From positions 186,001 to 250,000 of the forward strand of contig NZ_FRCS01000001.1 of assembly GCF_900143005.1 (NCBI RefSeq): 64,000 bases of DNA, given 5' to 3'. Below the pieces are notes generated by a model. That model saw only the letters and a program-made list of their open reading frames with translations, was not told where the DNA came from and made no database searches. This document shows positions 6,707-41,259 of the stretch, piece by piece (positions within the stretch are counted from its first letter, which is position 1; the number at the start of each line of letters is the position of its first letter). The position numbers and the translations under genes are program-made. Source of the DNA: Cryptosporangium aurantiacum. GTDB taxonomy: Bacteria > Actinomycetota > Actinomycetes > Mycobacteriales > Cryptosporangiaceae.

Positions 6707-9085
6707 TCAGTCTTCCTCGGGGCCCGGGTCACGGCCAGCCGCTGCGCCCGGTCCGCTCTCCGCGGCCAGTCCGGAGACCGGCTCGGAACGGACGACACGC
6801 GCCGGACCGGTCACCGGCGCGGAGCTCGGCGGCTCGGTGACGGTGGTGCCCTCGATCGGCGCGGCGACCGGCTCGGCGTCCTCGTCGGGGCGCAGCCAGA
6901 TGACGCCCAACGGCGGCAGCGTCACGGTCGCGGAAGCGGGCTCACCGTGCCAGGGCCGTGCCTCGGCCCGGACCTCACCGAGGTTGCCGACGCCCGAACC
7001 GCCGTAGACGTCCGCGTCGGTGTTGACGATCTCCCGCCAGCCGCCCGCGCGCGGCAGGCCCACCCGGTAGTCGTGGTGCGGGTGGCCGGCGAAGTTCGCG
7101 ACGCACGCCAGCACCGACCCGTCGGAGCCGTACCGCAGGAACGAGAAGACGTTGCTCGACGCGTCGTTCGCGTCGATCCAGGAGAAGCCCGCCGGGTCGA
7201 CGTCCTGGGTCCAGAGCGCGGGGGTCTCCCGGTAGACCCGGTTCAGGTCACCGATCAACTTCTGGACGCCCGCGTGGTCCGGGTTGTCCAGCAGCCACCA
7301 GTCCAGCGACCGGTCCTGCGACCACTCCGCCTCCTGGGCCAGCTCGCCGCCCATGAACAGCAGCTGCTTACCGGGGTGCGCCCACATGTAGGCGAACAGC
7401 GCGCGGAGGCCGGCCAGCTTGCGCCACCGGTCACCCGGCATCTTCCCGAACAGCGATCCCTTGCCGTGCACGACCTCGTCGTGCGACAGCGGCAGGACGA
7501 AGTTCTCGCTCCACGCGTAGACCAGCGAGAACGTCATCTGGTGGTGGTGGTACTGGCGGTGGATCGGGTCCCGGCTGACGTAGTCGAGCGTGTCGTGCAT
7601 CCAGCCCATGTTCCACTTGAACCCGAAGCCGAGCCCGCCGACGTGGGTGGGGCGGCTGACGCCGGGCCACGACGTGGACTCCTCGGCCACCATCATCGTT
7701 CCCGCGTGGTGCCGGTACACGGTGGCGTTGAGCTCCTGCAGGAACTTGACCGAGTCGAGGTTCTCCCGCCCGCCGTACTGGTTCGGCAGCCACTCGCCGT
7801 CCTTGCGCGAGTAATCCAGGTAGAGCATCGAGGCGACCGCGTCGACCCGCAGGCCGTCGATGTGGAACTCCTCCAGCCAGTACAGCGCGTTGGCCACCAG
7901 GAAGTTGCGCACCTCGTTGCGGCCGACGTCGAAGACCAGCGTGCCCCAGTCCGGGTGCTCGCCGCGGCGCGGGTCGGCGGGTTCGTAGAGGTGCGTGCCG
8001 TCGAACTTCGCCAGCGCCCAGGCGTCCTTCGGGAAGTGGGCGGGCACCCAGTCGACGATCACGCCGATGCCGGCGTTGTGCAGCCTGTCGACCAGGTAGC
8101 GGAAGTCGTCCGGGAGCCCGAACCGGGACGTCGGCGCGTAGTACCCGGTGACCTGGTAACCCCAGGAGCCGCCGAACGGGTGCTCGGCCACCGGCAGGAA
8201 CTCGACGTGCGTGAAGCCGAGCTCGGTCACGTACGCGACCAGCTCGTCGGCGAGCTGCCGGTAGGACAGGCCCTGCTTCCACGAGCCCAGGTGCACCTCG
8301 TAGACGCTCACCGGCTTGGCGTGCCAGCCGCCCCGGTCCCGCTCGGTGACCCACTCGGCGTCCGACCATTCGAACGTCGACTGGGTGACGACGCTCGCCG
8401 TCGCCGGGGGGACCTCGGTGGCGAAAGCCATCGGGTCGGCCTTCTCCCGCCAGTGCCCGTCCGGGCCGAGGATCTGGTACTTGTACCGGGCCCCGACCTT
8501 GACGTCGGGCACGAACAGCTCCCAGACGCCGCTGGAGCCCATCGAGCGCATCGGTAGCGCGCGGCCGTCCCAGAACGAGAAGTCGCCGGTCACCCGGACG
8601 CCGCGGGCGTTCGGTGCCCACACCGCGAAGCTGACGCCGGTGACCGGACCGGCCGGCGTGCCGTAGTGCCGCACGTGGGCGCCGAGCGCCTCCCAGAGGC
8701 GCTCGTGCCTGCCCTCGCCGATCAGGTGCAGGTCGACCTCGCCGAGCGTCGGCAGCCACCGGTACGGGTCGTCCGCGGTGTGCGTTCCGTGCCCGGCGCC
8801 ATGCTCGTAACGGACCTCGAGCCGGTAGTCACCGGGTTGCTCGGTGAAGTCGACGGCGAACACCCCGCCGTCGTGGACCCGGGTCATCTCCCGGCGCTCG
8901 TCCCCGGTCAGCAGCGTGACGGCCGCGGCCTCCGGTCGCAACGTCCGCACCACCCAGCCGCCGTTCTCCAGGCGATGCACGCCGAGGATCCCGTGCGGGT
9001 TGTGGTGTTCGCCGCGGACCAGCCGGTCCAGCTCGATCCGGTTCACGGACGTCTCCGGGTGGGCGGTCTCCGGGTGAATGCTCAT
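6707..9085 (-). CDS. glgB: 1,4-alpha-glucan branching enzyme GlgB (GH13)
   Basis: The enzyme introduces alpha-1,6 branches into linear glucan made by GlgE. It has 792 residues from ATG 9085. An N-terminal GlgB domain starts at [19 protein letters not shown]48 domain follows ([19 protein letters not shown]), then the GH13 barrel with nucleophile Asp in [11 protein letters not shown], acid/base Glu in [11 protein letters not shown] and [15 protein letters not shown] roughly 60-residue Pro/Val/Thr-rich tail extends past the usual end (LPPLGVIWL), making it longer than typical ~730-residue GlgBs. It is the last gene of the treS-mak-glgB direction, 70 bp after maltokinase. Confidence 0.96.
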
Positions 9086-9155: not shown

Positions 9156-10553
9156 TCAGGTAGCGAGGCGTGCGATCGATCGCAGGGGGATGTCGACCCA
9201 GCCGGGCCGGTTGTCGTACTCGTAGGCCACCTCGTAGACGGCCTTGTCCAGCTCGAGCGCGCGGAGCAGAACCGGGTTGGCCTCCGGGTCGGCGAGCGTG
9301 ACGCCGTCCTTCGAGTACCCCTCGATGAACGCTGCCCGGTTCCGGTCGGCCCACTCGACCACACGTTCGTCGGCGGCCGGGCTGATCTCGTCCGCCTCGA
9401 CGTTGCCGACCAGCAGGTGGTGGGCGGCGTAGTCGAACGAGCGGAGCATCCCGGCGACGTCACGCAGCGGCGACATCTTCGCGACCCGCTCGGGCAGCGG
9501 CCTGGCCGGCTCGCCCTCGAAGTCGATCAGCACCCAGTGGGTCAGCGTCCGGAGCACCTGACCGAGGTGCAGGTCCCCGTGGATCCGCTGGACGATGACC
9601 GGCTCACCGTGGCTGGCCACCTGGGCGAACACCCGGCGGATGCCCGGCTCGAACGGCGCCAGTCCGCCGACGCGGCGCAGCACGGCGTCCAACCGGGCGT
9701 TCATCCCGGCGACGACGCTGTCCAGGCGGTCGACCGGGACGACCTCGGTGCCCAGCGCCGTCACGAGGTCGGCGTGGACCGCGGCGACCGCCTGGCCGAG
9801 CCGGCAGGCCTCGGTCGAGAAGTCGCTGCCCAGCTCGTCGAGGGGGGTATCGGGCTCGTTGATCAGGTCACGCACCGAGGTGGTGGCCATCGCCCAGCCA
9901 TCGGCGCAGTTGGCGAAGAACCTCTGCAGCAGGCCGTAGGTGACCGGCGCGTCCTGCAGGTCCCCCTCGATCGCGCCGTAGAGGTCGGCGATGTGCTCGC
10001 TGCCGACGCTGCGCAGCGCCCGGTGCAGCTCGAGGTCCGGGCTGACGCCGCGGTCGAGCTTCCGGAACAGCTTCAGAATGTATTCGTCGCCGAACACGAT
10101 CGAGGTGTTGCTCTGCTCGGCGGAGATCGGCCGGCTGGGCAGGCCGGTTCGGATCACGGCTCCGGGCTCGTGCCGGAACCGCACGCCGTCGACGTCCGCG
10201 TTCGCCGCGATCAGATCGCGGACCTGACCGGTCAGCTCGAAGTCGTGCGCCGCGTCGTACGCCCACAGCGCGTGTTCGACCTCGCCGATCCGGGCGTAGT
10301 CGAGCCGCTCCGGCAGCTCCCGGCGCAGGCCGACGAGCAGCTGGTAGCGCTCGACCCGCCCGCCGGACGCGACCCCGACCACCACGTGCTCGAGGCGGGG
10401 CCCGCCGGCCGCGAGATCGTCGTACCAGACGTCGGCCTTGACCACCTGGACGTCGTCGATCGCGCTCTGCTTGTCGCCGAACCAGCGCTGTCTGGGCAGC
10501 CACGAGGCGAGCAGCCCGGTAAGGGCCTCGGCATGCGTGACCATCGTTGTCAT
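9156..10553 (-). CDS. mak: Maltokinase (Mak/Pep2)
   Basis: The enzyme phosphorylates maltose with ATP to maltose 1-phosphate, the GlgE substrate. It is a free-standing 465-residue form, not fused to TreS. The N-terminal cap contains [14 protein letters not shown]. The kinase core shows [19 protein letters not shown], catalytic loop [10 protein letters not shown] and metal-binding [15 protein letters not shown], all typical of actinobacterial maltokinases. The order treS-mak-glgB matches the GlgE pathway. It ends in ARLAT. Confidence 0.95.
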
Positions 10554-35048: not shown

Positions 35049-36305
35049 TTACGGCGCGTCGGCCGTGGCCAGCAGGTTGCCGTCGCGGAACGTCATGGAC
35101 AGCGGCGCCTGGTCGGCGCGGAGCCGCCGTTCGTCCCGGATCGCGCGGCGGTACGCCCCGGCCGTCCGATCGGCGATCGTCGTCCAGGAGTAGTCACGGG
35201 CGAGCACCGCCCGCGCGTCCCGCACCAACCGACGGGCGAGCACCTCGTCGGACAGGATCGCGGTGACCGCGTCCGCGAGGCCGGCCGGGTTCTGCGCCGG
35301 GAACCGGAGCCCGGTGATCCCGTGCGTGACGATCTCCCGCAGCCCGCCGGTGTCGGCGACGACGAGCGGCGTGCCGGCCGCGGTGGCCTCCAGCGCGATC
35401 ATGCCGAACGGCTCGTAGATGCTCGGGACGACCGCGCAGTCGGCGGCCGCCGCAACCGTGGCCAGCTTCTCGCCCTCCAGGAAGCCGGGCCACGCGACCG
35501 AGCGTCCCAAGCGGAGGCGTTTGGCTTGTGCCTTCAGTTCATCGAGGTGCGGGCCCTCGCCGGCGATCACCACCCGCAATCCTGGGTGCCTGCGGCGCAG
35601 CCGCGGCACTGCGGCGAGCAGATTGTGGACGCCCTTCTCGTAGACGAGCCGGCCGGCGAACAGGACGAGCGGGCCGCCGTACTCTTTCCGAACCGCCGCC
35701 ACCGCGGCCGGATCCGGCTTCCACGCGTGTGCGTCGACCCCGTTGGGGATCGGCTCGCACTTGTCCGGTGGCAGGTCGAACAGGCGGGTGACCTCCCAGC
35801 GCATGTACTCCGAGCACGTGATGACGCGGCGGGCCTCGTAGGTCAGCCACCACTCGATCGAGTGGATCGACCGGTTGAGCGGGCCGGGCAGCCAGCCCTG
35901 GTGCCGACCGGCCTCGGTAGCGTGCACGGTGGCCACCAGCGGGACGCCGAGCTGGTGCTTGAGCGTCGTCGCGGCGTGTGCGACGAGCCAGTCGTGCGCG
36001 TGGATGACGTCGGGAGCGGTCTCGTCCGCGACCCGGAGCGCGGCGCGGGCCAGCGCGTGGTTGAACGCCATCGTCCAGGCCAGCAGCGTCTGCTCGTCGA
36101 ACGCGAAGACCGGCGGGTCCTCGGGAACGCGCACGACCCGGACGCCCTCGACGACCTCGTCGTACGCGGCGCCGTCGGTGTGCCTGCTGACGACCGTGAC
36201 CTCGTGACCGGCTGCGGCCAGCGACGTGGCCAGCGCGTGGACGTGCCGGCCGAGGCCGCCGACCATCACCGGCGGGTACTCCCAGGACAGGATCATCGTG
36301 CGCAC
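35049..36305 (-). CDS. GT4 glycosyltransferase, probable alpha-1,4-glucosyltransferase (Rv3032-like)
   Basis: The 418-residue GT-B enzyme opens with MILSWEYPPVMVGGLGRHVHAL, the glycogen-synthase-like donor loop. Later motifs are VIHAHDWLVAHAATTLK, ITCSEYMRWEV, VLFAGRLVYEKGVHNLL and the EX7E segment EPFGMIALEATAAG. It resembles mycobacterial Rv3032, which elongates methylglucose lipopolysaccharide and glycogen chains. The GH57 and methyltransferase partners, adjacent in mycobacteria, are here found at 39.7-42.0 kb, separated by inserted genes. It is transcribed in the same direction as those partners. Confidence 0.88.
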   Translation of the reverse strand: MRTMILSWEYPPVMVGGLGRHVHALATSLAAAGHEVTVVSRHTDGAAYDEVVEGVRVVRVPEDPPVFAFDEQTLLAWTMAFNHALARAALRVADETAPDVIHAHDWLVAHAATTLKHQLGVPLVATVHATEAGRHQGWLPGPLNRSIHSIEWWLTYEARRVITCSEYMRWEVTRLFDLPPDKCEPIPNGVDAHAWKPDPAAVAAVRKEYGGPLVLFAGRLVYEKGVHNLLAAVPRLRRRHPGLRVVIAGEGPHLDELKAQAKRLRLGRSVAWPGFLEGEKLATVAAAADCAVVPSIYEPFGMIALEATAAGTPLVVADTGGLREIVTHGITGLRFPAQNPAGLADAVTAILSDEVLARRLVRDARAVLARDYSWTTIADRTAGAYRRAIRDERRLRADQAPLSMTFRDGNLLATADAP

Positions 36306-36387: not shown

Positions 36388-37650
36388 TCAGGAAGTAGGC
36401 GGACCGCCCGGGCGGTCCGAATCCAGCTCGTCCCGGATGGCGAGGGCGCGCGGATCGTCGAAAGAGGTCAATATCTCCAGCGCCTCGCGAAGTGCGGTCC
36501 TCGATGCTTCGACGTGGCCTGACTCGCTCTGCACGCGGGCGACGCTCAGCAGCGTGTCCGCAAGCCCCGCGCGGTCTCCGCTCCTGCGCTGCAGGTTCAG
36601 CGCCTCGGTGAGGGCCTCGAGTGACGCGCGTAGATCCCCCAAGCCTTCCAGCGCTCTCGCGTAGCCGTGTACCGCCAGGCCGTGCGTGTGAAGATCGATG
36701 CCGTCCGACTGCTCCTGTGCGCGCTGGAAGAGCGGCACTGCCTCGTCGAAGCGGCGTGTGTCCAAGCGCGCCTGTGCGACGGAGTCGATGAGCACGATTG
36801 CCTCGAGACGTCGTTCGCCGATCTCCCTCCAGATAGCTATGGCCTGTTCGCCGAACTCGATTGCCTCGTCGTAGTTGCCGAGCACGCAGGCAAGCTCACC
36901 CAGGTTCCCGAGAGTCATGCCCTCGCCCATCCTGTCGCCGATGGCGCGGCAGATCTCGAGTGCTTCCTCGTACGGCGGACCGGCCTCGACGAACTGTTCC
37001 AGGAGCACCAGCGCGCCGCCGAGGCTGATCAAGCTCCATGCTTCGGCGTAGCGGTCACCCTCCGCGCGGGCCGCGTTGACCGCGAGCTGGCTGGTCGTGA
37101 GCCAGTCCTTGCGGTGGTTGCGCAATTTGTAGAACGTGACCGCGCCCAGCGCGATGCGCCACGTGGCTGTCGGCCGCCCGGATTCGGCGGCCTGCTTGAC
37201 CGTCTCGAGCAGGGCAAATCGCTCCGCGTCGCACCAGGCCAGCGCTTGATCGTAGGACTGGAATTCGACCGGGTGCGTCCACGGCGACTCTTCGCCGAGC
37301 GGGACCGGTCGGCGAAGCGGTGCGAATATGCGGTCGGCAGCGTTGACCGTGTTCGCCATCCAGGCGGTGAGTCGATCGATCGCGGCTTCGATGTCCGCTG
37401 CGTCATCTTCGACGTTCAGGCGCTCTCGTGCAAAAACTCGTACGAAGAGCGGGAATTGATAGCGCTCGCCGCTGACGCGCTCCAACAGGTTGACGGCCAC
37501 CAGCGAATCCAGCCCGCGGCGAACGGACGCGGGTGGCGTTCTGGTCAGTGCCGATATCGCTGCCGCCGAGAATGTTAGGCCGGTCGTGAGTGCGGAATAG
37601 CGGAAGAGTAGCGCCTGATCCGTGAGACCGGAGTACGAGGACGAGAACAC
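36388..37650 (-). CDS. TPR protein, shortened FxsT/AfsR-like (winged helix plus TPR, no NB-ARC)
   Basis: The GTG at 37650 has GAGG 8 bases upstream and gives 420 residues; longer frames run antisense through the precursor gene. The N-terminus (SYSGLTDQALLFRYSALT, then TRTPPASVRRGLDSLVAVNLLERV) matches the winged-helix part that follows the NB-ARC ATPase in AfsR/FxsT-type proteins. Residues after about 175 are TPR units such as LGNLGELACVLGNYDEAIEFG and HGLAVHGYARALEGLGDL. No Walker A is present, so the ATPase module is missing. FxSxx-COOH clusters characteristically carry a TPR protein (FxsT), which is why I link it to the neighbouring maturase. Confidence 0.75.
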   Translation of the reverse strand: MFSSSYSGLTDQALLFRYSALTTGLTFSAAAISALTRTPPASVRRGLDSLVAVNLLERVSGERYQFPLFVRVFARERLNVEDDAADIEAAIDRLTAWMANTVNAADRIFAPLRRPVPLGEESPWTHPVEFQSYDQALAWCDAERFALLETVKQAAESGRPTATWRIALGAVTFYKLRNHRKDWLTTSQLAVNAARAEGDRYAEAWSLISLGGALVLLEQFVEAGPPYEEALEICRAIGDRMGEGMTLGNLGELACVLGNYDEAIEFGEQAIAIWREIGERRLEAIVLIDSVAQARLDTRRFDEAVPLFQRAQEQSDGIDLHTHGLAVHGYARALEGLGDLRASLEALTEALNLQRRSGDRAGLADTLLSVARVQSESGHVEASRTALREALEILTSFDDPRALAIRDELDSDRPGGPPTS

Positions 37651-37804
37651 GATTGTGACCTCTGAGTTTCGGTACGTCCCGACAGTAGGATTCTGTAACT
37701 TCGGCCCCAGTTCGGGCTCGTTGGGAAGTCTTGACACGCTTCGCCGCCCGCTGAGATCCTGCTCGATACTGACAGCGAGTCGTGTCGGACTTCCGGGGGT
37801 CTCG
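37651..37804. promoter_or_regulatory. Divergent control region of the radical SAM RiPP locus
   Basis: This 154-bp region separates the TPR gene from the precursor gene. A TTGACA (37731-37736) on the plus strand could be a -35, but the best -10 candidates (agatcc or gatcct at 17-18 bp) are weak. An imperfect dyad ACAG...CTGT sits near 37682-37697. The DNA is visibly less GC-rich than the surroundings. Confidence 0.35.
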
Positions 37805-37981
37805 ATGAGTCGCGAGAACATTGATGAATGTGCCGTCGTCGATGAGTTGTCCGACGAGATTATGCGGCCGGATTCAAGCGGGTTAGAAAGTGCGCTGGAG
37901 CGAGCACTGAGGCGCCGGGCAGACGAGGCTGACGAATCGATATTCGTCTTTGCGCACGGTAGCAGCTCGATGAGTCGGTGA
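37805..37981 (+). CDS. Candidate RiPP precursor peptide, FxsA-like but with a non-canonical C-terminus
   Basis: The 58-residue peptide starts at ATG 37805 behind GGGGG. An acidic leader (ECAVVDELSDEIMRPDSS) is followed by an amphipathic basic helix (LESALERALRRRADEADE) and a short C-terminal segment SIFVFAHGSSSMSR. Size, leader character and position (stop 4 bp before the maturase start) fit FxsA-type precursors. These normally end in F-x-S-x-x; here no such ending exists. Aromatic-x-residue triads that a three-residue cyclophane synthase might use are F47-V-F49 and F49-A-H51. Leu27 is a TTA codon. The precursor call is inferred from context. Confidence 0.7.
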   Translation: MSRENIDECAVVDELSDEIMRPDSSGLESALERALRRRADEADESIFVFAHGSSSMSR

Positions 37982-37985
37982 GTTG

Positions 37986-39245
37986 GTGTCTCCCGCTGTC
38001 GGGGAATGTGATGAACCATCGCGAGAGTGGCCGTTAGACGGTTCTATTGACAAGGCCGAACTCGTCAATGCTGGGTGGCGCCCCACGCCGATCCGTGAGT
38101 ACGTATTAAAGATCCAGTCCCGCTGCAATCTCGACTGCTCTTACTGCTACATCTATCATCTCGCGGATTCTTCGTGGAAGTCGCAGCCTCGGAGTATGTC
38201 GGCCGACGTCTTGTCGGCCGCTATTTCGCGGATCTCTGAACATGCTCGCGAACACGACCTCGCGCGCATGGCGCTAGTCCTGCATGGCGGCGAACCGCTC
38301 CTCGGTGGTACAGACTACGTCGAGTCGGCGATCACTGCGATCCGTCGAGGTCTCGGTCCGATTCAGGCCGATTTATTGCTGCAGACGAACGGGGTGCTTC
38401 TCACCGCGTCGATAGCCGATCGTTTGATCGACGCGGGTCTCAGTATCGGGATCAGCCTGGATGGCAACCAGGCGGCCAATGACTTGAACCGCACCTTCTC
38501 AAACGGCCGGTCGAGCTATCACGCCGTGCTCGGAGCAGTCCGCTTGATGTCCACGACTGCGCGGGTTGAGAGCTTCGCCGGGATCCTCTGCACAGTCCAA
38601 ATCGCTATCCCGCCGCTCGAGGTTTGGCGGAGCCTGCTCGATACGGGAAGCCCCTCGATCGACTTTCTATTGCCGCACGGCACGTGGGAGGCCCCGCCGC
38701 CGGGCCTTCCGTCTGATGGTTCGACACCATATGCCGACTGGCTCATCGCGATCTTCGATGAGTGGTTCGACGCTGCGGTCAGGCCGGTGCGTGTGCGAAT
38801 GTTCGAGGATCTTCTCGACCTCGTGCTCGGTGGCCCGGGAGGCCATGAAGGTTTTGGCCTCCAGCCTTTTCCCGCAGTAGTCATCGAGACTGATGGCTCG
38901 TACGAACAGGCCGACAGTCTGAAGGCCGCGTTCGAACGGGCCGCTCAGACGGGTTTGGCCGTGCCGGAGCACAGCATCGATGACTATCTCGCCCAGCCGG
39001 GCGTAATCGCTCGTCAGATTGGCTCGGCAGCATTGGCGCACGCTTGTCGAGAGTGTGACGTCGTGAGGATTTGCGGAGGCGGGATGTACGCCCACCGCTA
39101 TCGACGAGGGAGTGGGTTTCGGAACCCCTCCGTGTACTGCGCGAATCTGTTCGCACTCGTACGCCACATTCAGCGGCGAGTGGCCACTGCCTTGGAGGAA
39201 CGTGGCACCAGCCTCGCAGAGGTGACACTTCGCCATAACTGCTAG
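37986..39245 (+). CDS. fxsB: FxsB-family cyclophane-forming radical SAM/SPASM peptide maturase
   Basis: The 419-residue protein starts at GTG 37986 (a TTG at 37983 is also possible). Its radical SAM cluster is CNLDCSYC with cysteines at about 47, 51 and 54, preceded by the FxsB-type GWRPTPIREYVLKIQSRC. Later motifs are ALVLHGGEPLLGG, ISLDGNQAANDLNR, DFLLPHGTWEAPPPG, VVIETDGSYEQADSLKAAF and a C-terminal SPASM region (CRECDVVRICGGG, then SVYCANL). FxsB enzymes join an aromatic side chain to the beta carbon of a residue two positions later. There is no HExxH hydroxylase extension. Two TTA codons are present. Codon use is more AT-tolerant than in flanking genes. Confidence 0.88.
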   Translation: MSPAVGECDEPSREWPLDGSIDKAELVNAGWRPTPIREYVLKIQSRCNLDCSYCYIYHLADSSWKSQPRSMSADVLSAAISRISEHAREHDLARMALVLHGGEPLLGGTDYVESAITAIRRGLGPIQADLLLQTNGVLLTASIADRLIDAGLSIGISLDGNQAANDLNRTFSNGRSSYHAVLGAVRLMSTTARVESFAGILCTVQIAIPPLEVWRSLLDTGSPSIDFLLPHGTWEAPPPGLPSDGSTPYADWLIAIFDEWFDAAVRPVRVRMFEDLLDLVLGGPGGHEGFGLQPFPAVVIETDGSYEQADSLKAAFERAAQTGLAVPEHSIDDYLAQPGVIARQIGSAALAHACRECDVVRICGGGMYAHRYRRGSGFRNPSVYCANLFALVRHIQRRVATALEERGTSLAEVTLRHNC

Positions 39246-39258
39246 GCGTAGGGCTAGC

Positions 39259-39708
39259 GTGCCGTCTATGGATCTCGGGGAAGTTCTGGTGCTCGGCGGG
39301 CGCACGATCAGGCTGACGTCGGTCGAGTTGTCGCGGACGTACGGCGGCCTCATCGAGGGCTATCCGAACAGCAGGCTCAACGATGCCCACCTCCAGCGGG
39401 CGCGCGGGCGCTTGGAGACGCGGTATCCCAGGACGCCGACCTACGTGCTCGAACCGGCCCGCACGCTCCACCCGGAGCGGAACTTCTCCAGGGGCAGGCC
39501 GTGGGAAGAACTGCCGGCGGTCGAGTGCCGCGGCTTCTTCACGTCCACGACGATAGGGCCGCCGGGCGAGTACGGGCTCGGCATGTCGTGCTTGGCGGTG
39601 GCCTGGTGGCAGGACCACGACGGCGCGATCTTCAGCGACAGCGCGCGTCCGGCGTTCGCGACGCTGGACTGGAAAGCGCACGCCGAAGACCGCACCGATC
39701 CGGACTGA
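39259..39708 (+). CDS. Hypothetical protein downstream of the radical SAM gene
   Basis: This 149-residue soluble protein starts at GTG 39259 or ATG 39268. It contains VLVLGGRTIRLTSVELSRTYGGLIEGYP near the N-terminus and a C-terminal YGLGMSCLAVAWWQDHDGAIFSD. I do not recognise the family. It follows fxsB by 13 bp but its codon usage resembles the high-GC host genes. It could be either part of the RiPP operon or an unrelated gene at the insertion edge. It converges on the GH57 gene with 3 bp between stops. Confidence 0.65.
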   Translation: MPSMDLGEVLVLGGRTIRLTSVELSRTYGGLIEGYPNSRLNDAHLQRARGRLETRYPRTPTYVLEPARTLHPERNFSRGRPWEELPAVECRGFFTSTTIGPPGEYGLGMSCLAVAWWQDHDGAIFSDSARPAFATLDWKAHAEDRTDPD

Positions 39709-39711
39709 CGC

Positions 39712-41259
39712 TCAGAGCGTGCGGGCGTCCAGGTGGCCGAAGGGGTTGTCGGTGGTGGCCAGCTCCGCGGCGTACGCGGCGGCCTCGGGCTCGCGTCCGG
39801 ACTCGACCAGGTCGGCCAGGCGGTCGAAGCGGGCGGTGTGGGTCGCGGCGCGGTCGCGGGCGTAACCGGCCGCGCTGTCCTTCGTGACCATGAACGCCCA
39901 GTCGCTGGACGCCACCAGCAGCGCCTCCCTGGCGAGCTGGTCCAGGACCGGGTTGCGGGTGAGCCCGGACGCCTTGTCGACGACGTCCATCAGCCGGTCC
40001 TGCACGCGACGCGACTCGACGACGAGGTCGGCCACCTGCTCACCGTCCCAGACCCGCCAGTCCTTTCCGGACCCCCACGAGCTCGCAGGCAGTTCACGGG
40101 GCTCGCCGACGAGTCCCGCGGCGGCGGCGCCGGCCAGCGTCGTCACGTGAACCCCGGCCTCCGGGAGCCGACGCAGCACGGCCTCGAGCCACGAAGGCCC
40201 CTCGTACCACCAGTGGCCGAACAGCTCGGTGTCGTACGCGGCCACCACGAGCCCGGGGCGGCCCTCGTCGGCGTTGATGCGGGTCAGCCGGTCGTGGACC
40301 ACCCGCACGAAGTCGTCGGCGTCGCGGGACACCGCGGCGGCGGCGCGCGTGGGGTCCCACGGCGCCTTGAGCTCCGGCGCGACCTGCTTGCCGGTCACCC
40401 GCGCCGGCCGGAAGCCGGTCGGGTGATCGAACGTGTGGAAGTCGCGGTAGTCGGGTCCACCCGGGTAGCCCGCCTTCGGCGACCAGACCCGATACGTCAC
40501 GTCCAGGTCCCGTCCGAACGCCAGAACCGACGACGTGCCGACGGGATGCGCGAACGCGGTCCGGCCGGCCGGCTGACCCAGCGCCGTCCGGGTCTCGGCT
40601 CGCCCGATCGCGGTCGACCGTCGCAACGTCGGGCCGTCGACCAGGACGTGGGTGACGCCCGCTTCGGCGTACGAGGTTTCCAGCCCGGGCGCGTACCCGC
40701 ACTCGGGCGCCCAGATGCCGGGCGGCCTGGCGCCGAACCGCAGCGCGCCGTCGTCCAGCCCGGAGCTGAGCGCGAACCGCTGGAACCGGTCCCGGAGCAG
40801 CGGCTGGAACGGGTGCGTCGCGGGACCGCCGAGCAACTCGACGACGCCGCTGTCGGCCAGGTTGCGCAGCACCGGTGAACCGCCGTGGCGCCAGCGTCCC
40901 TCGAAGTCCGCGAGTGCGGCGGTGGCCTCCCGAAATTCGTGCGTGGCAAGCGTCCGCAAATGCCGTTCGGGACGCCCGGCCAACAGCTGCGCTCGCAGTT
41001 GCCAGTTCCCCAGCCACGTGTGCAGTTCATCGAGCAGGTAGCGGTCGTCGAGCATCGCAGCGGTCACCGGCGTGACGCCGAGCGTCAGCACGTCCCGGCG
41101 GCCCTCGGCGGCCAGCCGGTCGAGGACCGTCACCACCCGCCGCCAGGAGCCGGCGAACGCCTGGTGGAACCACTCCTCGCCGACCGGCCACGTACCGGCG
41201 TGGGGCAGCCAGGGCAGGTGCGTGTGGAGGACGAGGCAGAACGTGCCGACCGGTCTCAC
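39712..41259 (-). CDS. GH57 1,4-alpha-glucan branching enzyme (Rv3031-like)
   Basis: A 515-residue GH57 protein starting at GTG 41259, which overlaps the preceding methyltransferase stop (GTGA). The N-terminal GTFCLVLHTHLPWLPHAGTWPVG is typical of GH57 branching enzymes. The nucleophile Glu lies in GIWAPECGYAPGLE and the acid/base Asp in VAAYDTELFGHWWYEGP, followed by the DUF1957-type helical C-terminus. The mycobacterial counterpart acts in methylglucose lipopolysaccharide assembly. With the Rv3032-like glucosyltransferase and the methyltransferase it forms a second alpha-glucan pathway separate from the GlgE locus. Confidence 0.92.
   Translation of the reverse strand: MRPVGTFCLVLHTHLPWLPHAGTWPVGEEWFHQAFAGSWRRVVTVLDRLAAEGRRDVLTLGVTPVTAAMLDDRYLLDELHTWLGNWQLRAQLLAGRPERHLRTLATHEFREATAALADFEGRWRHGGSPVLRNLADSGVVELLGGPATHPFQPLLRDRFQRFALSSGLDDGALRFGARPPGIWAPECGYAPGLETSYAEAGVTHVLVDGPTLRRSTAIGRAETRTALGQPAGRTAFAHPVGTSSVLAFGRDLDVTYRVWSPKAGYPGGPDYRDFHTFDHPTGFRPARVTGKQVAPELKAPWDPTRAAAAVSRDADDFVRVVHDRLTRINADEGRPGLVVAAYDTELFGHWWYEGPSWLEAVLRRLPEAGVHVTTLAGAAAAGLVGEPRELPASSWGSGKDWRVWDGEQVADLVVESRRVQDRLMDVVDKASGLTRNPVLDQLAREALLVASSDWAFMVTKDSAAGYARDRAATHTARFDRLADLVESGREPEAAAYAAELATTDNPFGHLDARTL

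Follow-up and report, generated by a model that had tools for sequence, protein, structure and literature searches.

FxsB-family radical SAM/SPASM enzymes, collected in the curated family TIGR04269, are known from the FxSxx-COOH system, in which a small precursor is encoded upstream of the enzyme. In the excerpt drawn on here, an eLife 2020 analysis links the genes that process FxSxx peptides to AP-ATPase/TPR effectors and proposes them as conflict systems (PMC7159879). In triceptides, the first links to be described run between residues i and i+2 (PMC11002830, in part). Among the examples in the same excerpt, HaaB joins C2 of His to the β-carbon of Ala within the motif His-Ala-Ala, MscB joins C4 of Phe to the β-carbon of Ser, and YhhB joins Tyr or His to Arg (PMC11002830); these examples give precedent both for His as a ring partner and for Ser as an acceptor. 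The ChlB group, as described in an excerpt of PMC12636437, has a radical SAM domain fused to an HExxH hydroxylase.

The window analysed here is a stretch of 64,000 nucleotides, positions 186001-250000 of contig 1 of a 9.58-Mb genome (G000). It contains a compact cassette in which a 58-aa peptide ORF lies directly upstream of an intact FxsB-family enzyme ORF, with a TPR ORF divergently encoded on the minus strand (Table 1), as the first-pass annotation had described. The 4-bp gap given there between peptide and enzyme genes holds if the enzyme starts at GTG 37986 (4 nt) and falls to 1 nt if it starts at TTG 37983. Also borne out is the less GC-extreme codon usage of the cassette, with GC3 values of 0.63 (peptide), 0.69 (radical SAM enzyme) and 0.79 (TPR), while the GT4 and GH57 genes on either side have 0.93 and 0.92. 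GC content is 60% over intergenic positions 37654-37804, and no match to a sigma-70-like consensus was found within the intergenic region. The likely product of the gene pair is a short peptide with a His linked to a nearby Ser by the radical enzyme. The best explanation, offered with moderate confidence, is that of a compact triceptide-type RiPP locus from a distinct FxsB sub-branch, making a His-x-Ser cyclophane that is perhaps fused to a Phe/Tyr-x-His one.

Table 1. Coordinates of the cassette, its sequence elements and its neighbours (positions within the window).
Feature	Position	Strand	Remarks
Flanking GT4 gene	35049-36305		
Truncated TPR gene, 420 aa	36388..37650	-	GTG start inferred; stop at 36388
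Divergent intergenic region, TPR gene/peptide gene	37651..37804	n/a	
Candidate precursor peptide gene, 58 aa, MSRENIDECAVVDELSDEIMRPDSSGLESALERALRRRADEADESIFVFAHGSSSMSR	37805..37981	+	ATG start; GGGGG 5 nt upstream of ATG
Predicted core F49-A50-H51-G52-S53 ([YF]xHxS)	37949..37963	+	H51 and S53 are the predicted crosslink sites
FxsB-family radical SAM/SPASM enzyme, 420 aa	37983..39245	+	TTG 37983; alternative start GTG 37986
CxxxCxxC radical SAM cluster motif, C48/C52/C55	38124..38147	+	Cys in 56/56 other rows of the enzyme tree
SPASM cysteines C355, C358, C364, C386	39045..39140	+	Cys in 56, 56, 56 and 55 of 56 other rows
149-aa ORF between enzyme and GH57 genes	39259-39708		No family match
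Flanking GH57 gene	39712-41259		

The assignment as an FxsB-type maturase is supported: the window enzyme scores 445.2 bits against TIGR04269, above the curated cut-off of 370. The expected CxxxCxxC and C-terminal SPASM cysteines are present, the former at 48/52/55 when residues are counted from the TTG start (about 47-54 as first annotated). The closest solved structure by sequence is the radical SAM domain of ChlB (PDB 9gm3, with 9gmc from the same domain; 237 bits over enzyme residues 40-405 for 9gm3). Unlike the fused ChlB group, the window enzyme has 420 aa and Pfam matches of the radical SAM type only. It is also related to YhhB (350.9 bits), which uses His and Tyr as ring partners in the excerpted account (PMC11002830), but stays below the YhhB cut-off of 445, and in the window peptide neither F49 nor H51 is followed by Arg at i+2. 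In PADLOC, the hits were to a generic TPR model and, weakly and for the enzyme, of viperin type.

The best relatives of the window enzyme all come from one other actinomycete family, with identities of 56% in G617 and 52-53% in G578, G528, G689, G519 and G490; 8 of the 35 genomes of this family match at E<=1e-127. At E<=1e-118, matches occur in 28 of 394 genomes, the own genome counted. The own genome encodes four further FxsB-like enzymes (42-46% identity), and three other genomes of the genus encode one each (44-47%, E<=1e-100). A scan of contigs, which needs exact short peptides and can miss clade members, gave 13 relatives (best 48%), none within the window clade, and the best relative in plasmid records (L051, 49%) also falls outside it.

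The clade was defined in a tree of the window enzyme and 56 distinct relatives (57 rows), in which rows begin at the BLAST match start rather than the start codon and the long rows L065 and L012 were trimmed to 440 aa. The window enzyme clusters with six enzymes from a single other actinomycete family (support 100/98), in a tree whose bootstrap is not fully settled and which has long branches at L018 and L124; the branch of the window enzyme is itself long (0.65). Outside the clade are 15 rows labelled FxSxx and 35 unlabelled ones. The label was given where an ORF whose end lies no more than 700 bp ahead of the match start fits [FWY]x[SN]xx-COOH, a pattern that takes in endings such as FGNIP. 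In L114 and L116 a chance pattern-matching ORF overlaps the enzyme gene, and both were assigned manually to the YxHxS group; L008, L010 (YSHCA) and L014 fit a looser S-or-A pattern and were kept among the 35 of 57 ungrouped rows.

Twenty-one residues are identical in all seven clade enzymes and each occurs in fewer than 15% of the other rows. The clade has Q206 vs D in 47 of up to 50 other rows, A145 vs L in 47, W215 vs Y in 43 and L168 vs R in 44, the last being not special to the clade in that L is also found in the aligned ChlB and sulfatase-maturase chains. Such clade-specific residues are as expected if the substrate has changed, and on sequence grounds the window enzyme belongs to a distinct, sparse sub-branch of the known FxsB family. 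No description of the YxHNS enzyme clade was found in the literature, in a search that did not use the motif as a query, so that a prior description is possible.

How does the peptide compare with those of the clade? In all six related loci a small ORF precedes the enzyme gene and encodes SALxxALxRR and a YxHNS core; these precursors resemble SALDHALARRASADGDLVSGAYVHNSGPCLFRPRR (with AYAHNSGP as a variant in L113). The equivalents in the window peptide are the leader SALERALRRR and the core FAHGS, which align with the SALDHALARR-like leader and Y[VA]HNS of the six. Positions M1, S29, A30, L31, A34, L35, R37, R38, D43, H51 and S53 are invariant in the seven precursors, while the surroundings of the motif are N and GP in the relatives vs G and SS in the window peptide, which ends in GSSSMSR. 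As read from these alignments, the motif common to window and clade is [YF]xHxS, not FxSxx-COOH, and none of the 4 ORFs of at least 30 aa in the 700 bp upstream of the window enzyme has an FxSxx-COOH ending. The first-pass precursor is thereby retained as a candidate, but not as one of FxSxx-COOH type. In the 50 non-clade loci, [YF]xHxS near the end of an upstream ORF is found once, in the tail of a 906-aa ORF of L014.

The homology of the peptide rests mainly on the enzyme tree and on gene position, its own sequence signal being weak. Against a profile of the six precursors, the window peptide was outscored by 2 of 5000 of its shuffles and reached an E value of 0.42, not significant by itself, ranking second of 993 window segments by full score and having the highest best-domain score among the window segments listed. 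It was also second by full score among 224 ORFs upstream of 51 enzymes, with the highest best-domain score among the best 12 of these. The six precursors are near-copies from one family and count as about one independent observation. A search with the window peptide in 298 genomes of its order gave chance-level matches only (best other E 0.014).

The weak signal of the peptide bears on the reading that the 58-aa ORF is not a substrate and that the enzyme works in trans on the precursors of the four paralogous loci in its genome. At least two of these paralogs have FxSxx ORFs; the endings are FTSSL (L036), FSSAI (L039) and FGNIP (L038), with none clear at L037. The first-pass annotation had named canonical precursors at FxsB homologues elsewhere in the genome, together with a lack of conservation of the peptide, as grounds for giving up its reading. 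At least two paralogs do have such precursors, but the motif of the peptide is common to its nearest relatives. With a peptide gene only 1-4 nt from the enzyme gene, and an enzyme that groups apart from the 15 FxSxx-labelled rows and does not have some residues common to most of them, action in trans seems very improbable, and we infer that the enzyme acts on the 58-aa peptide.

In the favoured reading, the precursor would consist of the leader, the core F49-A-H51-G-S53 and a tail, SSMSR. The enzyme would take a hydrogen from the β-carbon of Ser53, and this carbon would be joined to C2 of the His51 imidazole, giving a three-residue His-x-Ser cyclophane with a loss of 2 Da. The atoms joined, like any role of the TPR protein, are predictions, whereas the gene identities, the enzyme clade, the common motif and the TPR truncation come from computation on the sequences. 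By analogy with the known links, H51-G52-S53 is the likeliest crosslink site, F49-A50-H51 being an alternative or a second ring. It is conceivable, although we lean against it, that the crosslink is Phe49-x-His51 (Tyr-x-His in the relatives), from the aromatic ring to the β-carbon of His, or that both links form a bicycle sharing His51. Position 49 is F or Y in 7/7 precursors, and Phe and Tyr serve as ring partners for MscB, YxdB and YhhB in the excerpted account (PMC11002830). However, the strictly invariant residues of the core are H and S only, and His as a β-carbon acceptor is absent from the examples of that excerpt (PMC11002830).

The third gene of the cassette differs from what was first annotated. 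The TPR frame is open from the stop at 36388 to 38019, and homology to relatives begins at 37668, six codons upstream of GTG 37650. The stretch 37654-38019 is without coding codon structure; its GC1, GC2 and GC3 are 0.56, 0.56 and 0.61, vs 0.69, 0.49 and 0.79 below it. An AGAGG lies 8 nt upstream of GTG 37650, and the gene therefore probably spans the 420 codons listed in Table 1. The FxsT-like identity proposed earlier is not supported, as NF040586 (FxSxx_TPR) is not among the four families matching the TPR ORF at E<=1. HaaT, although the best NCBIfam match, is rejected at 119 bits vs a cut-off of 1125. In the own genome, no more than two other matches to the window TPR protein, both distant, reach E 1e-10.

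Three of the six clade loci (L115, L116 and L117) have an enzyme-adjacent protein that matches the window TPR protein at 41-44%, encoded tail to tail (convergent) with the enzyme gene. In L115 and L117 these proteins have 875 and 882 aa, an N-terminal DUF4062 (62.5 and 62.9 bits, cut-off 24.7), TPRs, and NB-ARC and AAA matches below the Pfam cut-offs; against the HaaT model they reach 263 and 251 bits, also under its cut-off. The window protein is 44% identical to residues 448-855 of the L115 protein (E 3e-87), and residues 1-447 of the latter have no match in the window better than E 0.037. Because it matches the C-terminal half and is placed divergently, the window TPR protein is truncated and lies on the other side of the gene pair; by sequence it is a truncated relative of the DUF4062-NB-ARC-TPR-like proteins. 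No TPR match was seen in the regions fetched of L113 (where the sequence stops 2.3 kb past the enzyme), L114 and L118. In L115, an integrase-type transposase-like ORF, recognised by eye (9384-10295, enzyme set to +), adjoins the DUF4062-NB-ARC-TPR-like gene.

The FxSxx-COOH system is similarly associated with NB-ARC/AP-ATPase-TPR proteins in the excerpted account (PMC7159879), a link that by analogy would fit the DUF4062-NB-ARC-TPR-like partner of the clade. The window locus differs from that system in having no FxSxx-COOH terminus, in its clade-specific enzyme residues and in a TPR protein that is not FxsT by model; in addition, no HExxH-type partner was noticed by eye between the window flanks. 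HaaA/HaaB/HaaT resembles the locus in its His-containing i,i+2 motif and in the TPR protein beside the enzyme, but the window core is HGS, not HAA, and the HaaT cut-off is missed. In 246 genomes HaaT is above its cut-off once, at L124, where the candidate precursor contains GTHAAS and the enzyme (39.7% identical to that of the window) lies outside the clade on its long branch. The enzyme is therefore a member of the FxsB family, and the locus is neither an FxSxx system nor a Haa system.

The adjacent TPR protein may be what is left of a DUF4062-NB-ARC-TPR switch protein, or a pared-down version of one. Such switches are found beside some related enzymes and may detect the peptide or react to it. 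A more ambitious proposal, which we think improbable as a whole, is that a single FxsB-type enzyme turns the [YF]-x-H-x-S core into a fused bicyclic triceptide, with the central His in both rings through aromatic-to-His and His-to-Ser C-C bonds, and that the peptide is the ligand of the DUF4062-NB-ARC-TPR (NLR-like) switch. Alternatively, the locus could be a decaying remnant, with a switch protein stripped of its N-terminal half, a peptide that has drifted and an enzyme left without a real substrate. The TPR gene is without the DUF4062 and NB-ARC part and is placed unlike those of L115-L117, the window peptide is poorly conserved, and the truncation and low GC3 are also compatible with decay or recent acquisition of the locus. 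Decay nevertheless appears unlikely: the enzyme ORF is intact and keeps the conserved cysteines, the TPR ORF retains about 420 codons with a coding GC3 of 0.79, H and S are kept in the peptide, and the set can do without the TPR protein, as 3/6 related loci have no match to it in the region covered.

The surroundings of the cassette bear on its origin. Counting the own genome, 49 of 150 genomes in the order have the GH57 gene at E<=1e-60; the three other genomes of the genus have no match. Among the loci from these 49 genomes, 29 other than that of the window were compared, and in 14 of the 29 a GT4 gene follows GH57 on the same strand after a gap of 6 to 1137 nt, as judged within a 1.5-kb flank (less in L128). 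No cassette gene was detected in these 14 loci by tblastn at E<=1e-5, a test too coarse for the short peptide. In G023, the GH57 and GT4 proteins are 76% and 74% identical to those of the window, and the 2.1-kb gap holds other ORFs. No terminal repeats were seen around the cassette. The variable GT4-GH57 gap and the low GC3 suggest acquisition at a variable spot. The 149-aa ORF was rejected as a cassette member on several grounds: its GC3 of 0.89 is like that of the backbone, it is found at E<=1e-4 in its own genome only among 121 searched, its matches in ten relative loci have E values of 0.62 or more, and plasmid records gave 7 matches, four of them at 32-37% identity over 92-97% of the length.

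Other FxsB loci met in the survey show further precursor arrangements. Five small precursor-like ORFs, ending FTSFA, FNSFL, FGNFV, FGSFV and WSSFI, lie upstream of one enzyme in L042 (G003, same genus) and stop between 71 and 671 nt before the enzyme match at 7989. In L045 (G059), two GNFNSFI copies lie in one peptide, encoded by a precursor-like ORF that stops 127 nt before the enzyme match. The FxS stretch is not C-terminal in L119 and L068, where FDSN or FQSG is followed by a tail of several residues; these ORFs stop 1 and 28 nt before the enzyme match. In L008 and L010, from two related species, ORFs that stop about 328 nt before the FxsB enzyme match both end in NGLCSPSLRGYSHCAALDWC and could be another precursor type. 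In L065 and L012 the enzyme frame extends to some 850 and 800 aa, which suggests that a second domain is fused to it.

In the window locus, a compact enzyme-substrate pair, the shift of motif from FxSxx to [YF]xHxS coincides with a supported enzyme clade and with a limited set of clade-specific residues. Since the two changes go together, substrate choice in cyclophane synthases is testable by swaps. A His-Ser cyclophane, if true, would add to the reported His-Ala, His-Arg and Phe-Ser links, and the DUF4062-NB-ARC-TPR-like association of some relatives gives a handle on what such peptides do.
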